This document shows, piece after piece, positions 3,801 through 10,111 of a DNA stretch of 10,111 nt. Both the position numbers and the translations under genes were made by a program. The notes beneath the pieces were generated by a model. It had not been told where the DNA came from. It made no database searches and worked only from the letters and a program-made list of their open reading frames with translations. The stretch spans positions 1-10,111 of the forward strand of contig JAQGPE010000215.1 in the NCBI GenBank assembly GCA_028293225.1. The letters run 5' to 3'. This stretch comes from Akkermansiaceae bacterium. Lineage in GTDB: Bacteria; Verrucomicrobiota; Verrucomicrobiia; Verrucomicrobiales; Akkermansiaceae. The first letter of the stretch is position 1. The number at the start of each line of letters is the position of its first letter.

Positions 3801-4166
3801 TGCGTCCGCCGCGAGCGCACCAACACCCCGCTGCAAGCGCTGGTGATGCTCAATGATCTGCAATTCGTGGAGGCTTCAAAAGTGCTCGCCGCCCATGCGC
3901 TTGAGAAAGAGGACTCGTTCGACACGCGCCTCGATTTCATCACTTCCCGCTTGCTCAACCGGCCGCTGAATCCTGACGAGCGAACGAGCGCGAAAGCTAC
4001 CCTGGATCGCCTTCGTTCCATCTACACGGGCAAGCCGGATGAGGCAGTGAAACTGCTCGCCGCCGGTGAAAAGGCCGCGCCTGCCCAGCTCGATCCGGTC
4101 GAACTCGCGGCGTGGACCGTTTTCGCAAGCCAGATCCTGAACCTCGACGAGACCATTACGCGATGA
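885..4166 (+). CDS. Cytochrome c-type (PSCyt1)/DUF1549/LamG/DUF1553 lipoprotein
   Basis: Predicted 1093-residue exported lipoprotein. Residues 1-33 form a lipoprotein signal peptide (basic K3, R10, R12; hydrophobic core ~16-29; lipobox LTSC with Cys33). Domains in order: planctomycete cytochrome c (PSCyt1, ~65-155) with haem motif CYHCH at 76-80 and a candidate axial Met136 in VMPP; DUF1549/PSCyt2 (~187-396) with a second CAACH at 370-374 in the family motif GCAACHDHKFDP; LamG/concanavalin-like domain (~468-676); a short charged coiled-coil-like helix (~699-731); and DUF1553/PSD1 (~780-1090) with NRMWAYYFGTGIVETAEDFG and RERTNTPLQALVMLND. Family members accompany sulfatases and polysaccharide-utilisation genes in Planctomycetes and Verrucomicrobia; the catalytic role is not established. 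An in-frame GTG at 726 would add 53 residues before the signal peptide, so I prefer ATG 885; ATG 927 is also possible. No clear Shine-Dalgarno is seen. The stop overlaps the next gene's start. Confidence 0.93.
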   Translation: MGKGISSALRSRGAMVILYLAGALALGSGLTSCGKSHASESEAGSQVSSTSESVAVQLPREITFNEHIQPILSEHCYHCHGPDSGTRKPKESPLRLDLEADAFAKRENGQAVIVKGDPDHSLLIKLVKTGDEKKVMPPRESHKDLKPQEIALLEEWIRQGAKYEPHWSFAAIRNPELPKEGEGFATNPIDRFIAQKLSANGLEPNPPEDPRRFYRRLSLDLTGLPPSPGDTDQFVKRSTEAPQLAVEEAADRLMATSASAEHFTRQWLDAARYGDTHGIQYDNYRAIWPYRDWVIRAFQANMPWDRFTIEQIAGDLLPEPSLDQIVATGFNRCLITTNEGGAIPEEYEAIYAKDRTETMSGVWLGLTTGCAACHDHKFDPVSTKDFYSLTAFFRNNTMEALDGDSATPAPVVFVPLMEDRQRWAEVASGISATERAIEAREKAARPDFEKWLSNPAVIPPSRQLDSNLAIHVPLIEGEGTIKGTVDGQAREWPAQAGRIDGPLGKALLISEAPVELGDLGSFSRGDQVTYGGFVRIEGTPTGVIVARMNPGQAYRGWNILLLDGKLNTEIIETVGSAVHKYGLGTPLPPGEWHHVMITFDGTRPASEISAIYIDGVRQAGQLITSSIGNMIEADVPLRLGAREGNDARPNTRVALQDFRFYRRVLGAEEIQYLASAHVLRNLADTPVAQRTAARIDYVFRQYVDQMDGPLRDLRAKLEQLKKEEDGLRARGSMSLVMEERKDSAPAAHVLVRGVYSNKGEKVSADVPGVLPPLPAGAPHNRLGLARWLVDPANPLPARVTMNRMWAYYFGTGIVETAEDFGVMGARPSHPRLLDWLAHEFIASQWDYRHMVKLLVTSATYRQSAALSAEKLEKDPLNRLLSRGPRVRLDGEQLRDLALAASDLLVNRVGGPPVKPYQPDGVWETIAMAASNTRFYKQDAGEGLYRRSLYTFWKRSAPPPAMELFNAPSREVFCVRRERTNTPLQALVMLNDLQFVEASKVLAAHALEKEDSFDTRLDFITSRLLNRPLNPDERTSAKATLDRLRSIYTGKPDEAVKLLAAGEKAAPAQLDPVELAAWTVFASQILNLDETITR

Positions 4167-5626
4167 ATCCCATCGAAATCCACAATGCCGCGCTGACCCG
4201 CCGCCAGTTCTTTCGTAGCTCCGGAACGGGTTTGGGGGTGGCGGCCCTGACCTCGTTGATGGGCCGCGCCACCCAGGGCGAAACGGTCGATGCCGCCGGC
4301 TTTCTCGCCGGCCTTCCACAGGTCGCGCCGAAGGCGAAACGCGTCATCTTCATCTCGTTGATCGGCGCTCCCTCCCAGCTCGATACCTTCGACTACAAGC
4401 CGGACCTGCAGAAGCGCTTCAAGGAAGACCTGAGCGACTGGCTGAAGGTGCAAGGCCAGCGGCTCACGACCATGACCTCGGGCCAGAAGGGATTCCCGCT
4501 GGCGCCATCGATTTTCAAGTTCGCCCGGCACGGCCAATCTGGAGCATGGGTCAGCGAGCTGCTGCCATGGACCGCAAAGATGGTGGACGATCTGTGCATC
4601 ATCAAGTCGATGCACACCGATGCGGTCAACCATGAGCCGGCCAATCAGCTCATCTGCACCGGATCGATGCAATCGGGCAAGGCGTCCATGGGCTCGTGGA
4701 TGTCGTACGGTCTGGGCTCGATGAACCAGGACCTGCCCTCGTTCGTGGTCCTGCACGCCAGGAATTCGTCGCCTTTTGCCGCGGTGCAATCCATCTCGGC
4801 CCGCCTCTGGGGCGCGGGCTACCTTCCCGGCAAGTACGCCGGAGTGGCGCTGCGTTCACAGGGCGATCCGGTGCTTTTCCTGGAGGATACTCCGGGAATT
4901 CCCCGCGAGGTGCGCCGGACCATGCTGGACGGTCTCAATGAGTTTAACCGGAAGTCTTATGAGATCGTGGGCGATCCCGAGACCCAGACTCGGATTCAGC
5001 AATACGAGATGGCCTTCCGGATGCAGACTTCGGTTCCGGAACTCGCGGATCTTTCGAAGGAGCCGGAGAACGTCCACGCTCTCTACGGTCCGGAGAGCAG
5101 GACGCGCGGCAGCTTCGCCAACAGCGCTCTCATGGCGCGCCGCCTGATGGAGCGCGGCGTGCGCTTTGTGCAAATTTTCCACCGCGGCTGGGATCAACAT
5201 TCGAATCTTCCCCGCGACATCGCCTCGCAGTGCAAGGACATCGATCAGGGATGTTATGGGCTGATCCAGGATTTGAAGCAGCGCGGCATGCTTGAGGACA
5301 CGCTCGTCGTCTGGGGTGGCGAGTTCGGCCGCACGATCTATAGCCAGGGAAATCTCACGGATACCGACTACGGGCGGGACCATCATCCACGTTGCTTCAG
5401 CATGTGGCTGGCGGGCGGTGGCGTGAAGACCGGGCAGGTCTATGGCGAGACCGACGAAATGTCGTTCAATATTGTCCGGGATCCGGTCCACATCCGCGAT
5501 CTGCACGCCACCATTCTCTACTCCCTGGGAATGGATCACGAACGCCTCACCTACAAGTTCCAGGGTCTTGATCAGAAGCTCACCGGCACCGAGCCAGCGA
5601 CAGTGGTGAAGGAATTGTTTGCTTGA
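4163..5626 (+). CDS. DUF1501 family protein, Tat-exported, sulfatase-like fold
   Basis: Predicted 487-residue protein of the DUF1501 family, which belongs to the alkaline phosphatase/sulfatase superfamily. The N-terminus carries a twin-arginine export signal: TRRQFF with Arg13-Arg14, then a hydrophobic stretch GLGVAALTSLMG. Family hallmarks follow: KRVIFISLIGAPSQLDTFDYKP at 59-80, the MQ-rich middle (GSMQSGKASMGSWMSYGLG), WGGEFGRT at 384-391, and GRDHHPRCFSMWLAGGGVKTG with candidate metal-binding His407/His408. The length is normal and the gene is intact. The preferred start is ATG 4163, which overlaps the previous gene's TGA as ATGA and implies translational coupling. A GTG at 4112 would extend 17 residues ahead of the Tat signal and is unlikely. 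Pairing with a DUF1549/DUF1553 partner is the rule for this family, so the two probably act together outside the cytoplasmic membrane. The substrate and exact reaction are unknown. Confidence 0.93.
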   Translation: MNPIEIHNAALTRRQFFRSSGTGLGVAALTSLMGRATQGETVDAAGFLAGLPQVAPKAKRVIFISLIGAPSQLDTFDYKPDLQKRFKEDLSDWLKVQGQRLTTMTSGQKGFPLAPSIFKFARHGQSGAWVSELLPWTAKMVDDLCIIKSMHTDAVNHEPANQLICTGSMQSGKASMGSWMSYGLGSMNQDLPSFVVLHARNSSPFAAVQSISARLWGAGYLPGKYAGVALRSQGDPVLFLEDTPGIPREVRRTMLDGLNEFNRKSYEIVGDPETQTRIQQYEMAFRMQTSVPELADLSKEPENVHALYGPESRTRGSFANSALMARRLMERGVRFVQIFHRGWDQHSNLPRDIASQCKDIDQGCYGLIQDLKQRGMLEDTLVVWGGEFGRTIYSQGNLTDTDYGRDHHPRCFSMWLAGGGVKTGQVYGETDEMSFNIVRDPVHIRDLHATILYSLGMDHERLTYKFQGLDQKLTGTEPATVVKELFA

Positions 5627-5644: not shown

Positions 5645-5762
5645 GAAGTGAACCCCAGCCCACCAATGGCATGGCGCGTGCCATCATTCTGAGAACCGAA
5701 GCAGGAAGAGCTTCTCAACGGTTGAACACTCTCTGGCTGTGACTCTTCGAACTCGAATCCGG
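5645..5762 (+). repeat. Dispersed intergenic repeat, copy 1
   Basis: First of three related ~110-120 bp elements in this window, by eye roughly 80-85% identical to copy 2. It begins about 20 bases after the DUF1501 stop. Conserved landmarks in order are GAAGTGAA (5645-5652), CCAATGGCATGGCGCGTGCC (5663-5682), AACCGAAGCAGGAAGA (5694-5709), TTGAACACT (5722-5730), CTGGCTGTGA (5733-5742) and TTCGAACTCGAATCC (5746-5760). A 6-bp stem ATGGCA/TGCCAT (5666-5671 with 5679-5684) closes a 7-base loop. A second possible stem pairs AACCG with CGGTT (5694-5698, 5719-5723), with GAAGC/GCTTC-type pairing inside. TTCGA/TCGAA forms a near-perfect dyad at the 3' end. There is no T-run, so it is not an obvious terminator. 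Confidence 0.85.
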
Positions 5763-6394
5763 ACTCTCTTGCTTCGCCTCGCTTCGATCCCCCTCGACCT
5801 ATCACGCCTTTCTCACGAGCAAAGACCGCCTACGTCTGACTGAACACCTCAACGCCGGAGCGCAGCCCCGGTTAACCGCGGAAGTTTCATTCACATGCCA
5901 CGGCGAGCTTCGGCCAGAATTCGGTAAAAGGGCGACCCTTCCCTGCGATGGGATTCGATCTTAGGCGCTTCCCTTGCTAGCGCAATGGCGCATCCCACAA
6001 TCGCTTTTTTCCGGCGTCCTGCTATCTGATCCGCATGAATACTGCGTCCATTCCTTGCGGCTCTCCCTGCCGAAGCGAATGACTCCTCCTCCGCCATTTC
6101 GGAAAACACCTCACCAACCTCACCCTGTGGGCCACCTGTTCGCTCCAAACCCTGGCAAACCTCACCTTTTCGTCCGAGCTCTACACATGCCCGACACGAC
6201 CACCATCAGCTGGGGATCGGTAGTCGCACCAGCAGCACGGTAGCGGGCGCCACCACCGCCTACCGGGCCAATGCCACCGGCACGACTGCCGGCGCCAACA
6301 ATCTCAACCAGTACAAGAAAGTGGGCTCCAGTTCGGCGATCACCGACGACGACGATGGGAACATGCCTGACTGCACATCAACGCCGATACCTCA
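5763..6394. other. Long stretch without an intact gene
   Basis: About 630 bases lie between repeat copy 1 and the next intact gene. The first part (5763-6030) shows no gene-like frame I trust. It holds a C/T-rich run after the repeat (CTTGCTTCGCCTCGCTTCGA) and a perfect 10-bp palindrome CGGTTAACCG at 5869-5878. The second part, from about 6039, has coding-like composition but is frameshifted and is described separately as a probable gene relic. No tRNA, rRNA or clear promoter was found. A promoter for the 166-residue protein should lie in this stretch, but I could not pick out convincing -35/-10 boxes. Confidence 0.5.
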
Positions 6395-6398
6395 ATGA
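6039..6398 (+). pseudogene. Frameshifted relic of a GC-rich, probably exported protein
   Basis: One frame is open for 120 codons, from just after a TGA at 6036-6038 to a TGA at 6396-6398, but it has no usable start codon near its beginning. Its first part reads like the tail of a signal peptide (PFLAALPAEANDSSSAISEN). From about 6084 the neighbouring +2 frame looks more protein-like (NLTLWATCSLQTLANLTFSSELYT) until it hits a stop near 6220. From about 6219 the first frame again has strong GC3 coding bias (STVAGATTAYRANATG, then NLNQYKKVGSSSAITDDDDGN). An ATG at 6035 starts a short out-of-phase N-terminus. The simplest reading is a decayed gene with at least two frameshifts. The acidic DDDDGN-MPD end resembles calcium-binding turns of verrucomicrobial secreted proteins. 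The family is not identified. Sequencing error is an alternative. Confidence 0.35.
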
Positions 6399-6895
6399 AA
6401 CTACTATTCGTTACCTTTTTTGCTGTCTGGCTCTCTCAGCTTCATGCGCAGGAGACTAAAGGTTCCTTGCCTCGTGAGGTAAGTGTTACTGCTCACGTGA
6501 CACTTGAAAGTGTATTTGGCGCGAAGGCCTCGATATTCTATTTTATAACGAACAATTCTGATGTTTCACAGGATGTGTTTACGGAATGGATTTACGACTC
6601 GGGCAGAATGTTGGAGGTGAAATCGAGCTTGACGGGCGAGGTCTTCCCTAATCAACCCGGCGGGTTGTTCCCTGATGAATCAAAGAAGAAAATTACTCTA
6701 TCGCCGAAATGTACGATCATTCTAGTTGGGCCGGTTCCAATCAATGATATTTTCTTAAAGCGGAAGGAGGGGAGTTATGCGATAACGCATGCGATTTTCG
6801 GTGATGTGATATATCCCTTTGCTCTAACGAAAAAAGGTATTGAGGAAAAGATTGAAGATACTGAGGGTGAGAGTGATGAAAAGAAAAAGAAGTGA
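6395..6895 (+). CDS. Small secreted protein of unknown function
   Basis: Predicted 166-residue protein that I do not recognise. Residues 1-19 look like a Sec signal peptide (MKLLFVTFFAVWLSQLHA, probable cleavage before QE). The mature part is mixed beta-like (VSVTAHVTLESVFGAKASIFYFITNN...IILVGPVP) and ends in a very charged tail (EEKIEDTEGESDEKKKK). One could picture an immunoglobulin-like or other small beta fold, but no motif decides it. The ATG overlaps the stop of the upstream relic frame as ATGA, and no Shine-Dalgarno is visible. Codon use and base composition are clearly AT-richer than the flanking large genes (about 35-53% G+C in lines I counted), suggesting acquisition from elsewhere. 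Its last codon and stop (AAG TGA) lie inside repeat copy 2. No cysteine-rich, enzymatic or membrane-anchor features are seen. Confidence 0.7.
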   Translation: MKLLFVTFFAVWLSQLHAQETKGSLPREVSVTAHVTLESVFGAKASIFYFITNNSDVSQDVFTEWIYDSGRMLEVKSSLTGEVFPNQPGGLFPDESKKKITLSPKCTIILVGPVPINDIFLKRKEGSYAITHAIFGDVIYPFALTKKGIEEKIEDTEGESDEKKKK

Positions 6896-7010
6896 AGTCC
6901 GCGCGCCAACCAATGGCATGGCGCGTGCCACTCATTTGAAAACCGAAGCAGGAAGATCTCCTGGGCGATTGAACACTTTCTGGCTGTGATCCTTCGAACT
7001 CGAATCCGAG
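6889..7010 (+). repeat. Dispersed intergenic repeat, copy 2
   Basis: Second member of the family. It opens with GAAGTGAA (6890-6897), whose TGA is the stop codon of the 166-residue gene. Landmarks are CCAATGGCATGGCGCGTGCC (6910-6929), AACCGAAGCAGGAAGA (6941-6956), TTGAACACT (6970-6978), CTGGCTGTGA (6980-6989) and TTCGAACTCGAATCC (6993-7007). Two mutually exclusive stems are possible: TGGCA/TGCCA (6914-6918 with 6926-6930), as in copy 1, or CGCGCC/GGCGCG (6902-6907 with 6920-6925), as in copy 3. The complement strand has an open frame through this copy and copy 1 with similar peptides (FEFEGSQPESVQ, then SSCFG and GTRHAIG), but copy 3 interrupts that frame. Confidence 0.85.
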
Positions 7011-7025
7011 CCTATTAATAATATG

Positions 7026-7030
7026 AAGGA
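7026..7030 (+). promoter_or_regulatory. Shine-Dalgarno-like AAGGA for the 91-residue gene
   Basis: AAGGA lies 12 bases ahead of ATG 7043, slightly farther than ideal. It supports that start, because an in-frame TAG at 7040-7042 immediately precedes the ATG and rules out any longer form. The element overlaps the beginning of a competing 44-codon frame that starts at ATG 7023. Confidence 0.4.
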
Positions 7031-7042
7031 TTACTCGCTTAG

Positions 7043-7318
7043 ATGGCCGGCCGATTTGAGAACTGCTCATGGGAGCTTGAGTCCAAGGGTTGGTTCGACG
7101 GATTGGAAATTACTGTTGATGAGAAGACCTTTAATCCAATTTTCTATGACGTCGTAAGGCTCTCGCAGGACATCGCCGAAGAAATATCTGCGGGACGGGT
7201 CTTTGTGCTGCAAAACTTGGTTGTTGTTGAACGCGTGTGCCGGGAGGCAATGGAATCTGCGGTAGCGAATCTCGCGCAGTCTGATGAGCTGAGACGTCTG
7301 ATCTCATCGAAAAAGTGA
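7043..7318 (+). CDS. Small cytoplasmic protein of unknown function
   Basis: Predicted 91-residue soluble protein with no signal peptide or membrane segment. The first half looks alpha/beta (FENCSWELESKGWFDGLEITVDEKTFNPIFYDVVRLSQDIAEE, acidic and rich in aromatics). The second half looks helical (LVVVERVCREAMESAVANLAQSDELRRLISSKK). Size and composition would suit an immunity-type or antitoxin-type protein, but no family motif supports this and no toxin partner is adjacent. The gene occupies almost the whole interval between repeat copies 2 and 3, and its last codon and stop fall in copy 3. A sampled line is about 45% G+C, well below the flanking large genes. A second frame from ATG 7023 (MKDYSLRWPADLRTAHGS, stop at 7155-7157) overlaps its 5' end, so an indel near 7065-7070 may have displaced the original N-terminus. 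Confidence 0.6.
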   Translation: MAGRFENCSWELESKGWFDGLEITVDEKTFNPIFYDVVRLSQDIAEEISAGRVFVLQNLVVVERVCREAMESAVANLAQSDELRRLISSKK

Positions 7319-7430
7319 ACGGTACGCGCCAACCAATGCCATGCGCGTGCTACCTATCTAGGAACCGAAGCAAGGAGCAGCTTCTCGATGAAGGAACACT
7401 CTTTGATTTGGACTTCCCGGCTGAACTTCC
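7313..7430 (+). repeat. Dispersed intergenic repeat, copy 3 (most diverged)
   Basis: Third member. It starts with AAGTGAAC (7313-7320), whose TGA is the stop of the 91-residue gene. Conserved blocks are GCGCCAACCAATG (7326-7338), GCGCGTGC (7343-7350), GAACCGAAGCA (7362-7372), AGCTTCTC (7379-7386) and GAACACTCT (7394-7402). Beyond that the match to copies 1 and 2 fades, and the 3' limit is approximate. The TGGCA/TGCCA stem is lost (TGCCA/TGCTA), but ACGCGC (7324-7329) pairs perfectly with GCGCGT (7343-7348), and GAAGC pairs with GCTTC across 8 bases. The remaining sequence to 7576, before the end of the convergent minus-strand gene, shows nothing I can name. Confidence 0.75.
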
Positions 7431-7576
7431 GCACGTGCCTTGGTCCTTGCCTCTTTTGCGGTTGCCACCCATAGAGAGGGATGGAGACTGGACTCTGGCC
7501 GGGCGGCGCGGGGAGATCTAGTGGGTGACTTAAGGCGTCCTGAGTTTCATCTCCGTGGCGTGGATCCGGGGCGAGG

Positions 7577-8887
7577 TCAGTGGGAGATCCGCCGACCGGT
7601 TTGGTTCATGTAGTCGTAGCGGACGCGTTCGAGGCGGCGCACCACGCCGGGGTTGGTGAGGCCAGCCGTGCTGGCCATGAAGGCGTCGAGATCGGAGGTG
7701 CTATAGAGTTTCTGAACCGACAGTTCGCCCAGGCCCTGCTCGCGGCGCCAGTCACCCTCCGGGAGTTGATCCAGCATGGCGCGGGCGTCGTCGGGCTGCA
7801 TTGTGGCGAGGGGGCTGACCATGGAGCTGAAGAGGTTTTCGGTCTCCGGCCGTTCGGGCAGGTTCAGAGCCCAGTCGGCGAGTTCCTGGGGGCGGCCGGT
7901 GTTGTAGACCTTGCCGGAGGTGGACTGGTCGATGAAGTCCCACTCGCCGGCGGCCATGGCTTGATCGAGCGCGGGGAGCAGGGCCGGCACATCGCGGGCG
8001 GTCTCCGAAAGCAGCATCTTTGCGGCCTCCCCGCGCTCGCTCTCCGGGATGGAGGCGAACTGGGCGGAGATGCCCGCGGCATCCATCCCGCGCAAGAGGG
8101 TGGCCCAGCCAGCCATGGCAGCGGTGCGCTCCGGAGAACCGGGCGGGAGAGTTCCCCACTGGGCGCGTAGTACTTCGCGATCTTCCGGGGCGTCCATCAT
8201 GCGGTAAGCGCTCTGTAGCCAAGTGGCGACCTGCTGGGAATCACCGGAGGCGCGGATGCCATCGAGGACGGTCTGGCGCATGGAGTTGTTGTTACCGGTG
8301 TGGAAGACCCGGGACATGGCGCTGAGCCGGAGATTGGCGGGGAGCTCGCCGAAAACGGACATGACCAACTTCGGGTCATGGGTGACGACCACCTCCAGCC
8401 ACTGGCGGTTCAGGCGCGCGGCGTAGGGTCCCAGGCTGCCGGAGGAGAGGATCTTCCAGGCTTCCAGGGGGTGCTGGGAGAAGGCCGTGGCGAAGGCGGA
8501 GAGCGACTGGCCTTCGGTGGCCGCGAATTTCATGGCTGCGGCGAGATCGGCGTCGGCCCACTGCTTGAGGAGTTCCTGGTAGCGAACACCGCGGTCCTCC
8601 GCGGGCATGGGTTGGCGCTTCAGGAGATTCCAGGCGGTGAGGAACTCCCGGTTGCGGACAGCCTGACTGGTAGACGCGGAAGCTGGACGGGGCTGGCGAG
8701 ACTTGCCGGCTCTGTCCAACGATGAGAGGGAGGAATCCCTGTCCACGGTGTCCGGAGTAGCTTGGGCAGCATTGCGATTGCCAAGTCCCAGGGTGGCGAT
8801 GAATCCGGGCGCGAAGGAGGCAAGCAGCAGTCCGGCGACGAGCGCACCCGCGTGGGTGAGGAGCGGGCGTTTTGGGAACCGGGTCAT
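7577..8887 (-). CDS. Membrane-anchored helical-repeat protein, verrucomicrobial type, unknown function
   Basis: Predicted 436-residue protein. A basic N-terminus (R3, K6, R7) and one hydrophobic segment at ~11-36 (GALVAGLLLASFAPGFIATLGLG) act as an uncleaved anchor or signal peptide, placing the rest outside the cytoplasm. A low-complexity linker rich in S, R, P and D follows (~38-75). The remainder (~76-436) is a string of helical units of ~30-40 residues with recurring W and LP positions: PLEAWKILSS, QWLEVVVTHD, VATWLQSAY, ELADWALNLPERPE, ARAMLDQLPEGDWR. This is typical of uncharacterised alpha-solenoid proteins common in Verrucomicrobiota. Its ATG overlaps the preceding gene's TGA by one base (TGATG), so the two are probably co-translated. 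It ends convergently with the repeat strip. I see no catalytic motif. A scaffold or interaction role is an inference. Confidence 0.8.
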   Translation of the reverse strand: MTRFPKRPLLTHAGALVAGLLLASFAPGFIATLGLGNRNAAQATPDTVDRDSSLSSLDRAGKSRQPRPASASTSQAVRNREFLTAWNLLKRQPMPAEDRGVRYQELLKQWADADLAAAMKFAATEGQSLSAFATAFSQHPLEAWKILSSGSLGPYAARLNRQWLEVVVTHDPKLVMSVFGELPANLRLSAMSRVFHTGNNNSMRQTVLDGIRASGDSQQVATWLQSAYRMMDAPEDREVLRAQWGTLPPGSPERTAAMAGWATLLRGMDAAGISAQFASIPESERGEAAKMLLSETARDVPALLPALDQAMAAGEWDFIDQSTSGKVYNTGRPQELADWALNLPERPETENLFSSMVSPLATMQPDDARAMLDQLPEGDWRREQGLGELSVQKLYSTSDLDAFMASTAGLTNPGVVRRLERVRYDYMNQTGRRISH

Positions 8888-10111
8888 CAGCGCTTTTCAG
8901 AGATTTTTTGGAGGAGGCGGGGATCGGTGATCTGGCTTCGGAGGCGTGCGGCGGTGTCGCCGTCACTGCGCTCCCGGGAGCGGGCCAACGAGTAGAGGGC
9001 GATCTCGCGGTCGGGGCCGGCCGGGAGGTCCTCGACCCAGGCGGCGAAGTCACCGGTGCTGTTGCGGTTCAACCAGACAACGCTGGAGTTCCATGCGTCC
9101 ACGCGGCTTTCCCAGAGGGCGGGGTCGTCAGCGGGAACCTGCTGGATGACCTGAAGGAAGGTATCCGGCGAGGCGCGCTGGAAACGGGTGCGGATGGCAT
9201 TCAGGATGGCGTCGTTGCGATCCTCCTCGGGCAGACCGTCGAGCAGCTTCATGGCGGCGGGAGTATTTTCCACGGCCAGCTGGGCGAAGACCTGGTCGCG
9301 CAACTCAGTGGGTGCGGAGGCCGCTAGTTCGGGAGACGCTTGTGTGGCCGCGGCCAGAACCTCGGCGGCCGTGGCATCGCCCGAGCGGACCAGACCGGGC
9401 CAGTCGATCGAGTTAGTGAGGGCGCGGCTGAGATCGGCTCGGCAGAGACTCTCGTATTTCTCGCTTTCTGTGGCGCCGTCAGAAAATTGCACCCGTAGGG
9501 CGAGGGGAGCGGAGGAGTTCCAGGCAATGGCGGAGCCAAAGCCCTTGTCAGCCAGGAGAGCCTGCCGGAAATCCACGGGCAGTGCGGGATCATCCATCAT
9601 TTTAATCAACCAGGCAGAGCTCTCTCTTTCGCTTTCAGGGGTGCTGGTCTGGTAGCCATTGGCCAGGCCGCTGATCATGCCGGGCTGGTTTTGCTGGATG
9701 GCGAAAGCGAGCAAGGCCTCGCGGCGGTCGGGTGGCCACTGGTAGCTGAGATTCTGGCAGAAATCCTTCCACTGGTCCGGCGGAATAAGATCCTTCACCA
9801 CGGCAAGGCGGCCGGAGTCTGGCTCGCGGGCCAGCTCGCCGGCCATGGCGCGGCGGATGCTATAGGCACCCGAAGAGGAGGCCGGCCCGGCATCGCGGAG
9901 CAGCTTGTCGATGGCGCTTGGGACCTTCATGGCCTCCCCGACCGCGACGCCGAGGAACCGGGCGGAAACAGCGCTGTGAGAGGAGTCTGCCCACACCCAG
10001 TCCCCGTAGGCGCCGGGATCCTTCAGGAGCCATTGATAAATGAGAGCGGCCATCTCCGGAGCGGGCTTCCAACCGGCTTCGCCCGGAGCAGGGTGAGTGC
10101 TTTCCAGCAAA
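8887..10111 (-). CDS. Helical-repeat protein, apparent relative of the downstream gene (5' truncated)
   Basis: The frame is open to the right window edge, and ~408 C-terminal residues are visible. A TTG at 10108-10110 is only the first possible start in view and is unlikely to be real. The visible part is entirely helical-repeat in character, with units built around W and LP positions: IYQWLLKDPGAYGDWVWAD, LSYQWPPDRREALLAFA, AAMKLLDGLPEEDRNDAIL, DFAAWVEDLPAGPDREIAL. The same 'A/L-x-x-W-x-x-x-LP-x-x-P/D-R' pattern occurs in the downstream protein, so the two look like distant tandem paralogues. Any signal peptide or anchor would be outside the window. Its TGA overlaps the next gene's ATG. No enzyme motif is visible and the function is unknown. 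Confidence 0.8.
   Translation of the reverse strand, partial: LLESTHPAPGEAGWKPAPEMAALIYQWLLKDPGAYGDWVWADSSHSAVSARFLGVAVGEAMKVPSAIDKLLRDAGPASSSGAYSIRRAMAGELAREPDSGRLAVVKDLIPPDQWKDFCQNLSYQWPPDRREALLAFAIQQNQPGMISGLANGYQTSTPESERESSAWLIKMMDDPALPVDFRQALLADKGFGSAIAWNSSAPLALRVQFSDGATESEKYESLCRADLSRALTNSIDWPGLVRSGDATAAEVLAAATQASPELAASAPTELRDQVFAQLAVENTPAAMKLLDGLPEEDRNDAILNAIRTRFQRASPDTFLQVIQQVPADDPALWESRVDAWNSSVVWLNRNSTGDFAAWVEDLPAGPDREIALYSLARSRERSDGDTAARLRSQITDPRLLQKISEKR

Follow-up and report, generated by a model that had tools for sequence, protein, structure and literature searches.

The window analyzed here, a 10,111-nt stretch of Akkermansiaceae DNA, comes from a 4.5-Mb draft genome that is divided into 820 contigs and is 62% complete. 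Three same-strand copies of a repeat, starting at positions 5646, 6890, and 7313 of the window, are interspersed with a gene relic and two small genes. The array is preceded by a PSCyt/DUF1553 and DUF1501 operon ending at 5626; the DUF1501 ORF (4112..5626, plus strand; PF07394, E = 1.5e-153) forms its left border, and copy 1 starts 20 positions beyond the end of this ORF. Beyond the last copy, two adjacent long ORFs of 436 and 407 aa (7577-10110, minus strand) had no Pfam match at an E value of ≤0.1. An earlier, sequence-only reading of this DNA had reported three copies in the same orientation and small genes richer in AT than the GC-rich flanks. Both observations were confirmed: the copies are 75 to 88% identical, and the GC content is 0.43 and 0.50 in the small genes versus 0.61 to 0.66 in the four flanking genes measured.

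Copy 1 (5646..5986, plus strand; right end approximate) is nearly full length and extends further than had been reported, with a first conserved block (block A) at 5646-5727 and a second (block B, in the second half of the element) from ~5808, where the block B profile matched 5808-6027. Copies 2 (6890..7011, plus strand) and 3 (7313..7431, plus strand) are both truncated at the 3′ end, and copy 3 is also diverged. Copies 1 and 2 share 85% (ungapped) to 88% identity over 104 bp, and copy 3 is 75% identical to copy 2 across 76 bp (E = 3.2e-6 when the source genome was searched). All three copies open with AAGTGAA, and the TGA within this motif is, in copies 2 and 3, the stop codon of the ORFs at 6395-6895 and 7043-7318, respectively. 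The repeat is not confined to the window, since a fourth copy is present in the same genome (G000:C207:2573-2652, minus strand). Searches of plasmid records with copy 2 and of phage records with copy 1 gave no match.

The relic is represented by one open piece of a YD-repeat (Rhs) gene (6213..6374, plus strand). In 57 genomes, this frame had only three matches outside the window, with per-genome E values between 4e-4 and 1.5e-3; each lies inside an Rhs ORF of a relative, within the region covered by the Rhs-core profile and at 37 to 44% identity. No NCBIfam model was reported for the frame, and a blastx comparison with 42 fetched Rhs ORFs did not score above shuffled sequences. Because the relic frame matches Rhs ORFs, the order in the window can be read as element, Rhs relic, orphan gene, element, orphan gene, and element. 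The first orphan gene, ORF166 (6395..6895, plus strand; 166 aa), has a signal-peptide-like start as judged by eye; it matched no Pfam or NCBIfam family, and a search of 5.8 billion proteins returned only ORF166 itself at an E value of ≤0.01. The second, ORF91 (7043..7318, plus strand; 91 aa), also matched no Pfam or NCBIfam family, and one relative was found, an 89-aa protein (P0003) with 50% identity over 77%. By eye, the N terminus of P0003 apparently aligns to a frame other than that of ORF91 (window positions 7005-7070), and the ORF91 gene may be decaying. We consider ORF166 and ORF91 candidate orphan immunity genes. Among the window ORFs scanned with Pfam and NCBIfam, no toxin family was revealed, and we read the toxin of this array as lost.

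The repeat is a noncoding element of ~345 bp, sharply delimited at the 5′ side (AARTGAAC) but not at the 3′ side, where its end varies. When 63 copies were aligned with their flanks, information rises at position 1 from ~0 to 1.2 bits, remains mostly high for ~50 bases, and then drops before the second conserved block further on, and the 5′ flank has no consensus. Among the 60 longest pairwise alignments listed, many stop near 300 to 345. Block B, located ~160 to 345 bp into the element, was also searched separately beside block A in 40 genomes to reduce bias from the block A model, the block B model being itself derived from copies carrying block A. Block A lay upstream of 43 of the 49 block B matches, and block B was present for 43 of 108 block A matches, some of the A-only copies being at contig ends. 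The element does not look coding: in six of eight pairwise comparisons, substitutions were spread evenly over codon positions; in two close pairs, changes at second positions were fewer; and most indels were not multiples of three. A leader peptide starting at ATGAAC was considered and rejected on the basis of a frame that, by eye only, is not conserved. At two loci from the genus of the window (L037 and L041), conservation is also seen in another stretch behind the element, at +300 to +644.

With a sequence-only search model built from 15 copies, 44 of 260 genomes from the family contained the element (E ≤ 0.01), with 1 to 9 copies per positive genome; of 386 genomes sampled across the order, including the family itself, 63 were positive (E ≤ 1e-6). 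When an exact pattern was searched in a collection with one genome per species, 13 stretches were returned, of which 12 were titled Akkermansiaceae, Verrucomicrobiaceae, or Akkermansia muciniphila (the last accounting for four stretches from three MAGs) and 1 was titled Kiritimatiellae. In the Kiritimatiellae MAG, which falls outside the order, the element is followed by coding remains that, read by eye, resemble YD repeats (L158:300-1000, minus strand).

We then considered the genes upstream of the copies, using a first and less biased set of 63 copies at 56 loci and a larger set of 103 copies that included 20 more regions. The Rhs-core profile matched at 20 of the 56 loci, whereas 13 control stretches, taken from six of these genomes, gave no match. 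An Rhs ORF ended upstream on the same strand for 23 of the 63 copies, at a distance of 300 to 689 bp in 22 of the 23 cases; this is far above the <1% that we estimate for random sites from Rhs counts. In the larger set, 49 of 103 copies had an Rhs-core ORF upstream on the same strand (within 811 bp for 43 of the 49), and none had one on the opposite strand. The gap between the Rhs core and the element usually leaves room for one immunity gene. The toxin or immunity families found beside copies included SUKH-3, RES, Imm27, EndoU, TreTu, and SUKH-1, the SUKH-1 neighbor being accompanied by ankyrins and DUF4240. Neither the identity of the relic as an Rhs gene nor the assignment of the array to Rhs toxin-immunity loci had been part of the sequence-only reading, which was nevertheless right in describing an array of the gene-plus-3′-repeat type, of a nonintegron kind, containing a gene relic.

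That reading had also tied the copies to gene ends, and this held in part. For 40 of 63 copies, an ORF of ≥50 aa ended between −60 and +15 of the repeat start, compared to 22.5% of random places, and an ORF ended on the element's own TGA for 11 of 63 copies, compared to 3.1% of random places with the nine positions from 0 to +8 combined. Several copies, however, follow ordinary genes, and for 46 of 103 the 3 kb upstream contained no Rhs core, with a further 8 copies located at contig edges. Copies were found after genes for a prolyl-tRNA synthetase (119 bp), a gluconolactonase-like protein (30 bp), and an alpha/beta hydrolase (88 bp), and the ORFs of a GH2 gene and an FtsK-like gene stop on the TGA of the element. 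Of 43 proteins whose genes end at a copy or close to one, only 2 could be assigned to a named immunity family; most of the small genes matched nothing, and the same 43 proteins yielded 18 families with one protein each, mostly ordinary ones. Rhs genes also occur where the element was not detected: the NCBI Rhs core model matched in 46 of 50 genomes checked (0 to 24 matches per genome, genomes with no detected element included), and many Rhs loci had no detected element, as in G002 and G016, which have 8 and 10 cores, respectively, and no element.

Comparison of units within arrays revealed how the Rhs-linked copies are placed. In the L049, L165, L163, and L038 arrays, the cores of successive units are 79 to 94% identical, the interiors cannot be aligned by blastn, and homology returns within ~10 bases of position 0 of the element. 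The cores are 92% identical in L049, where the element and the next core align at 94% over 861 bp from position 0; 84 to 88% identical in L165, where the element aligns at 92.5% over 431 bp from position 0 in one pair; 90% identical in L163, with element pieces at 85 to 94%; and 79% identical in L038, with the element at 95 to 96%. The next Rhs-core fragment lies directly behind the element in L049 and L165. At L037 and L041, two loci in one genome, 88.6% identity begins at −1, and the cores do not align as DNA. Modules carrying the shared 3′ element were found in three families of the order, and orientation was uniform in all 16 multicopy loci. Some copies are stacked: an earlier copy is cut at ~27, 52, 92 to 94, or 190 to 198 bp, and the next copy restarts at position 0. 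Copies are joined at position 0 in this way in L163, L165, L168, L169, L172, and L038, and in the L173 stack ~30 other bases separate them. The stacked copies are clearly unlike each other in L165, L169, and L172, and the extra piece in L038 is a near-identical duplication.

These data provide good support for the view that the element marks a boundary of Rhs modules in a large proportion of cases. In several arrays, the order within a module is Rhs-core fragment, toxin tip, immunity gene, and element, with modules arranged head to tail. Since core and element supply the same flanking homologies around unrelated interiors, replacement or stacking of modules is possible: an incoming module would replace the resident one through homologous recombination at the core and the element, or the same two-end recombination would place it in front of the resident one. 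That the element acts as a downstream homology block is our best inference. The window fits a decayed array of this kind, as its layout resembles arrays elsewhere minus the toxin, and both of its orphan genes would then have an immunity role. Taken as a whole, the proposal that the element is the 3′ border and downstream homology block of Rhs toxin-immunity modules in Verrucomicrobiales, with the window as a decayed array, is the one we favor, with somewhat better than even confidence.

The stacks joined at position 0 run counter to what plain homologous exchange would predict, and they are among the observations that fit the main rival, a mobile, nonautonomous repeat (MITE-like, or of a retro type in which one end is fixed) that settles at the 3′ ends of genes and hitchhikes on Rhs modules. 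The sharp 5′ end without a flank consensus, the variable 3′ end, the joining of clearly unlike copies in three loci, the copies behind ordinary genes, and the presence of 1 to 9 copies per genome with a match all suit such a repeat. Linkage to Rhs in 23 of 63 copies, set against the rate estimated for random sites, argues against it, as does the lack of any transposase consistently nearby; in addition, neither terminal inverted repeats nor target duplications were noticed in an unsystematic look. The suggestion that the copies are REP-like elements carried by a RAYT was not borne out, since, of 60 upstream ORF pieces scanned, 2 had a Y1_Tnp (IS200-like Y1 transposase) domain, including one at L101. 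No clean empty site was found: for two solitary copies, mainly the downstream gene was common to relatives (one relative also retains fragments of the gene preceding the element, at a greater distance), and therefore no insertion boundary could be read. The element was found in none of 11 fetched flanks of DUF1501 relatives, which do not represent empty sites because the family is multicopy and the right-hand neighbor in the window was not found there. We regard a mobile repeat as a serious rival, though less likely than the favored reading, and dispersal and service as a homology block may both apply. For 7 of 103 copies, a tyrosine recombinase was encoded within 4 kb, compared to none of 13 controls, and this, together with the copies after ordinary genes, means that the element may move by itself or be used by a recombinase. 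A related proposal is that the element serves as the recombination site of a previously undescribed polymorphic-toxin cassette system, in which a dedicated enzyme joins modules or element copies precisely at the 5′ end of the element, behind stop codons. This seems to us rather unlikely; if true, toxin-immunity modules would be collected much as in integrons, but with neither attC nor IntI.

Integron cassettes consist of a gene plus a 3′ repeat and are arranged head to tail in a single orientation, and the arrays described here share all of these features. Integron integrases were, moreover, above the cutoff in 23 of 57 genomes searched, the source genome being included in the 57. The arrays differ from integron cassettes in lacking a consistent recombinase, in having the 5′ end of the repeat as the fixed end, and in lacking the attC core pair (RYYYAAC...GTTRRRY, 55 to 150 bp apart), which was found in 0 of 103 copies. 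The sequence-only reading had asked whether an integrase is linked, and no integron integrase was above the cutoff in the source genome, at its 62% completeness. Bottom-strand folding was not clearly better than that of shuffled sequences (z scores of −0.4, −1.3, and +0.5), and we consider it extremely improbable that the copies are attC sites of an integron cassette array. A structured 3′-untranslated-region RNA or a terminator of the immunity genes would account for the position directly behind stop codons, including the 11 copies whose own TGA is used, and block B contains a possible 5-pair stem in which 3 pairs have changed on both sides. Otherwise, no conserved fold was evident: when 15 and 22 copies were aligned, 4 and 5 pairs resulted, with two-sided changes in 0 and 3, respectively; folds of single copies had z scores of +0.9, −1.0, and −1.7; and Rfam and tRNA searches found no family near the cutoff. 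An RNA or terminator function is accordingly very unlikely in our estimation.

Returning to the favored reading of a 3′ border and homology block, the modules resemble several known arrangements. In the Enterobacteriaceae, the available part of one report describes a main rhs gene and, behind it, displaced rhs-CT/immunity pairs in which part of the core is retained, with evidence for homologous recombination via a 522-bp core stretch (PMC3967940). The modules described here are like those orphan units in being displaced toxin-immunity genes with core remnants; homology is described there, in that part, at the core only, whereas here the modules also end in a shared noncoding element (PMC3967940). 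For the type VI secretion system (T6SS) of Vibrio cholerae, the portion of the report consulted describes arrays of orphan immunity genes that grow behind the newest module, by a model combining an upstream anchor with illegitimate recombination on the other side (PMC5361080). Orphan immunity genes accumulate in both cases, but that model, as set out in the same portion, has homology upstream only, while here homology is repeated at the 3′ side (PMC5361080). In Neisseria, maf islands carry silent mafB-CT/mafI cassettes of toxin tip plus immunity gene behind a full toxin gene, according to the part of the source available (PMC4287609). The cassettes are alike in content; that part does not describe a 3′ repeat element, and the toxin scaffold is another one, in contrast to the 3′ element and Rhs scaffold found here (PMC4287609). 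Among the literature titles and openings of abstracts searched, a scope lying mostly outside subscription journals, we found no description of such an element.

The way in which orphan toxin and immunity genes build up into arrays is still an open question, and a shared 3′ element would provide the missing downstream homology. The repeat may in this way help bacteria to exchange and accumulate toxin and immunity genes. It makes module exchange testable through breakpoint mapping and would aid in finding orphan immunity genes that lie outside family models, perhaps including both orphans in the window.

Recombinase genes were seen beside modules at a few loci. At L107:4516-6921 (minus strand), an Xer-like tyrosine recombinase precedes an Rhs fragment in one frame, and an Xer-like recombinase also lies before an Rhs-core fragment and toxin tip at L098:2078-3274 (minus strand) and L126:4417-5616 (plus strand), the Rhs nature of the next ORF at L098 being based on a BLAST match only. 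On an IMG/VR contig (L191:3-3580), an Rhs tip (profile E = 2.7e-11), a small gene, and a full element are followed by a tyrosine recombinase, and a prophage may lie right behind the element there.
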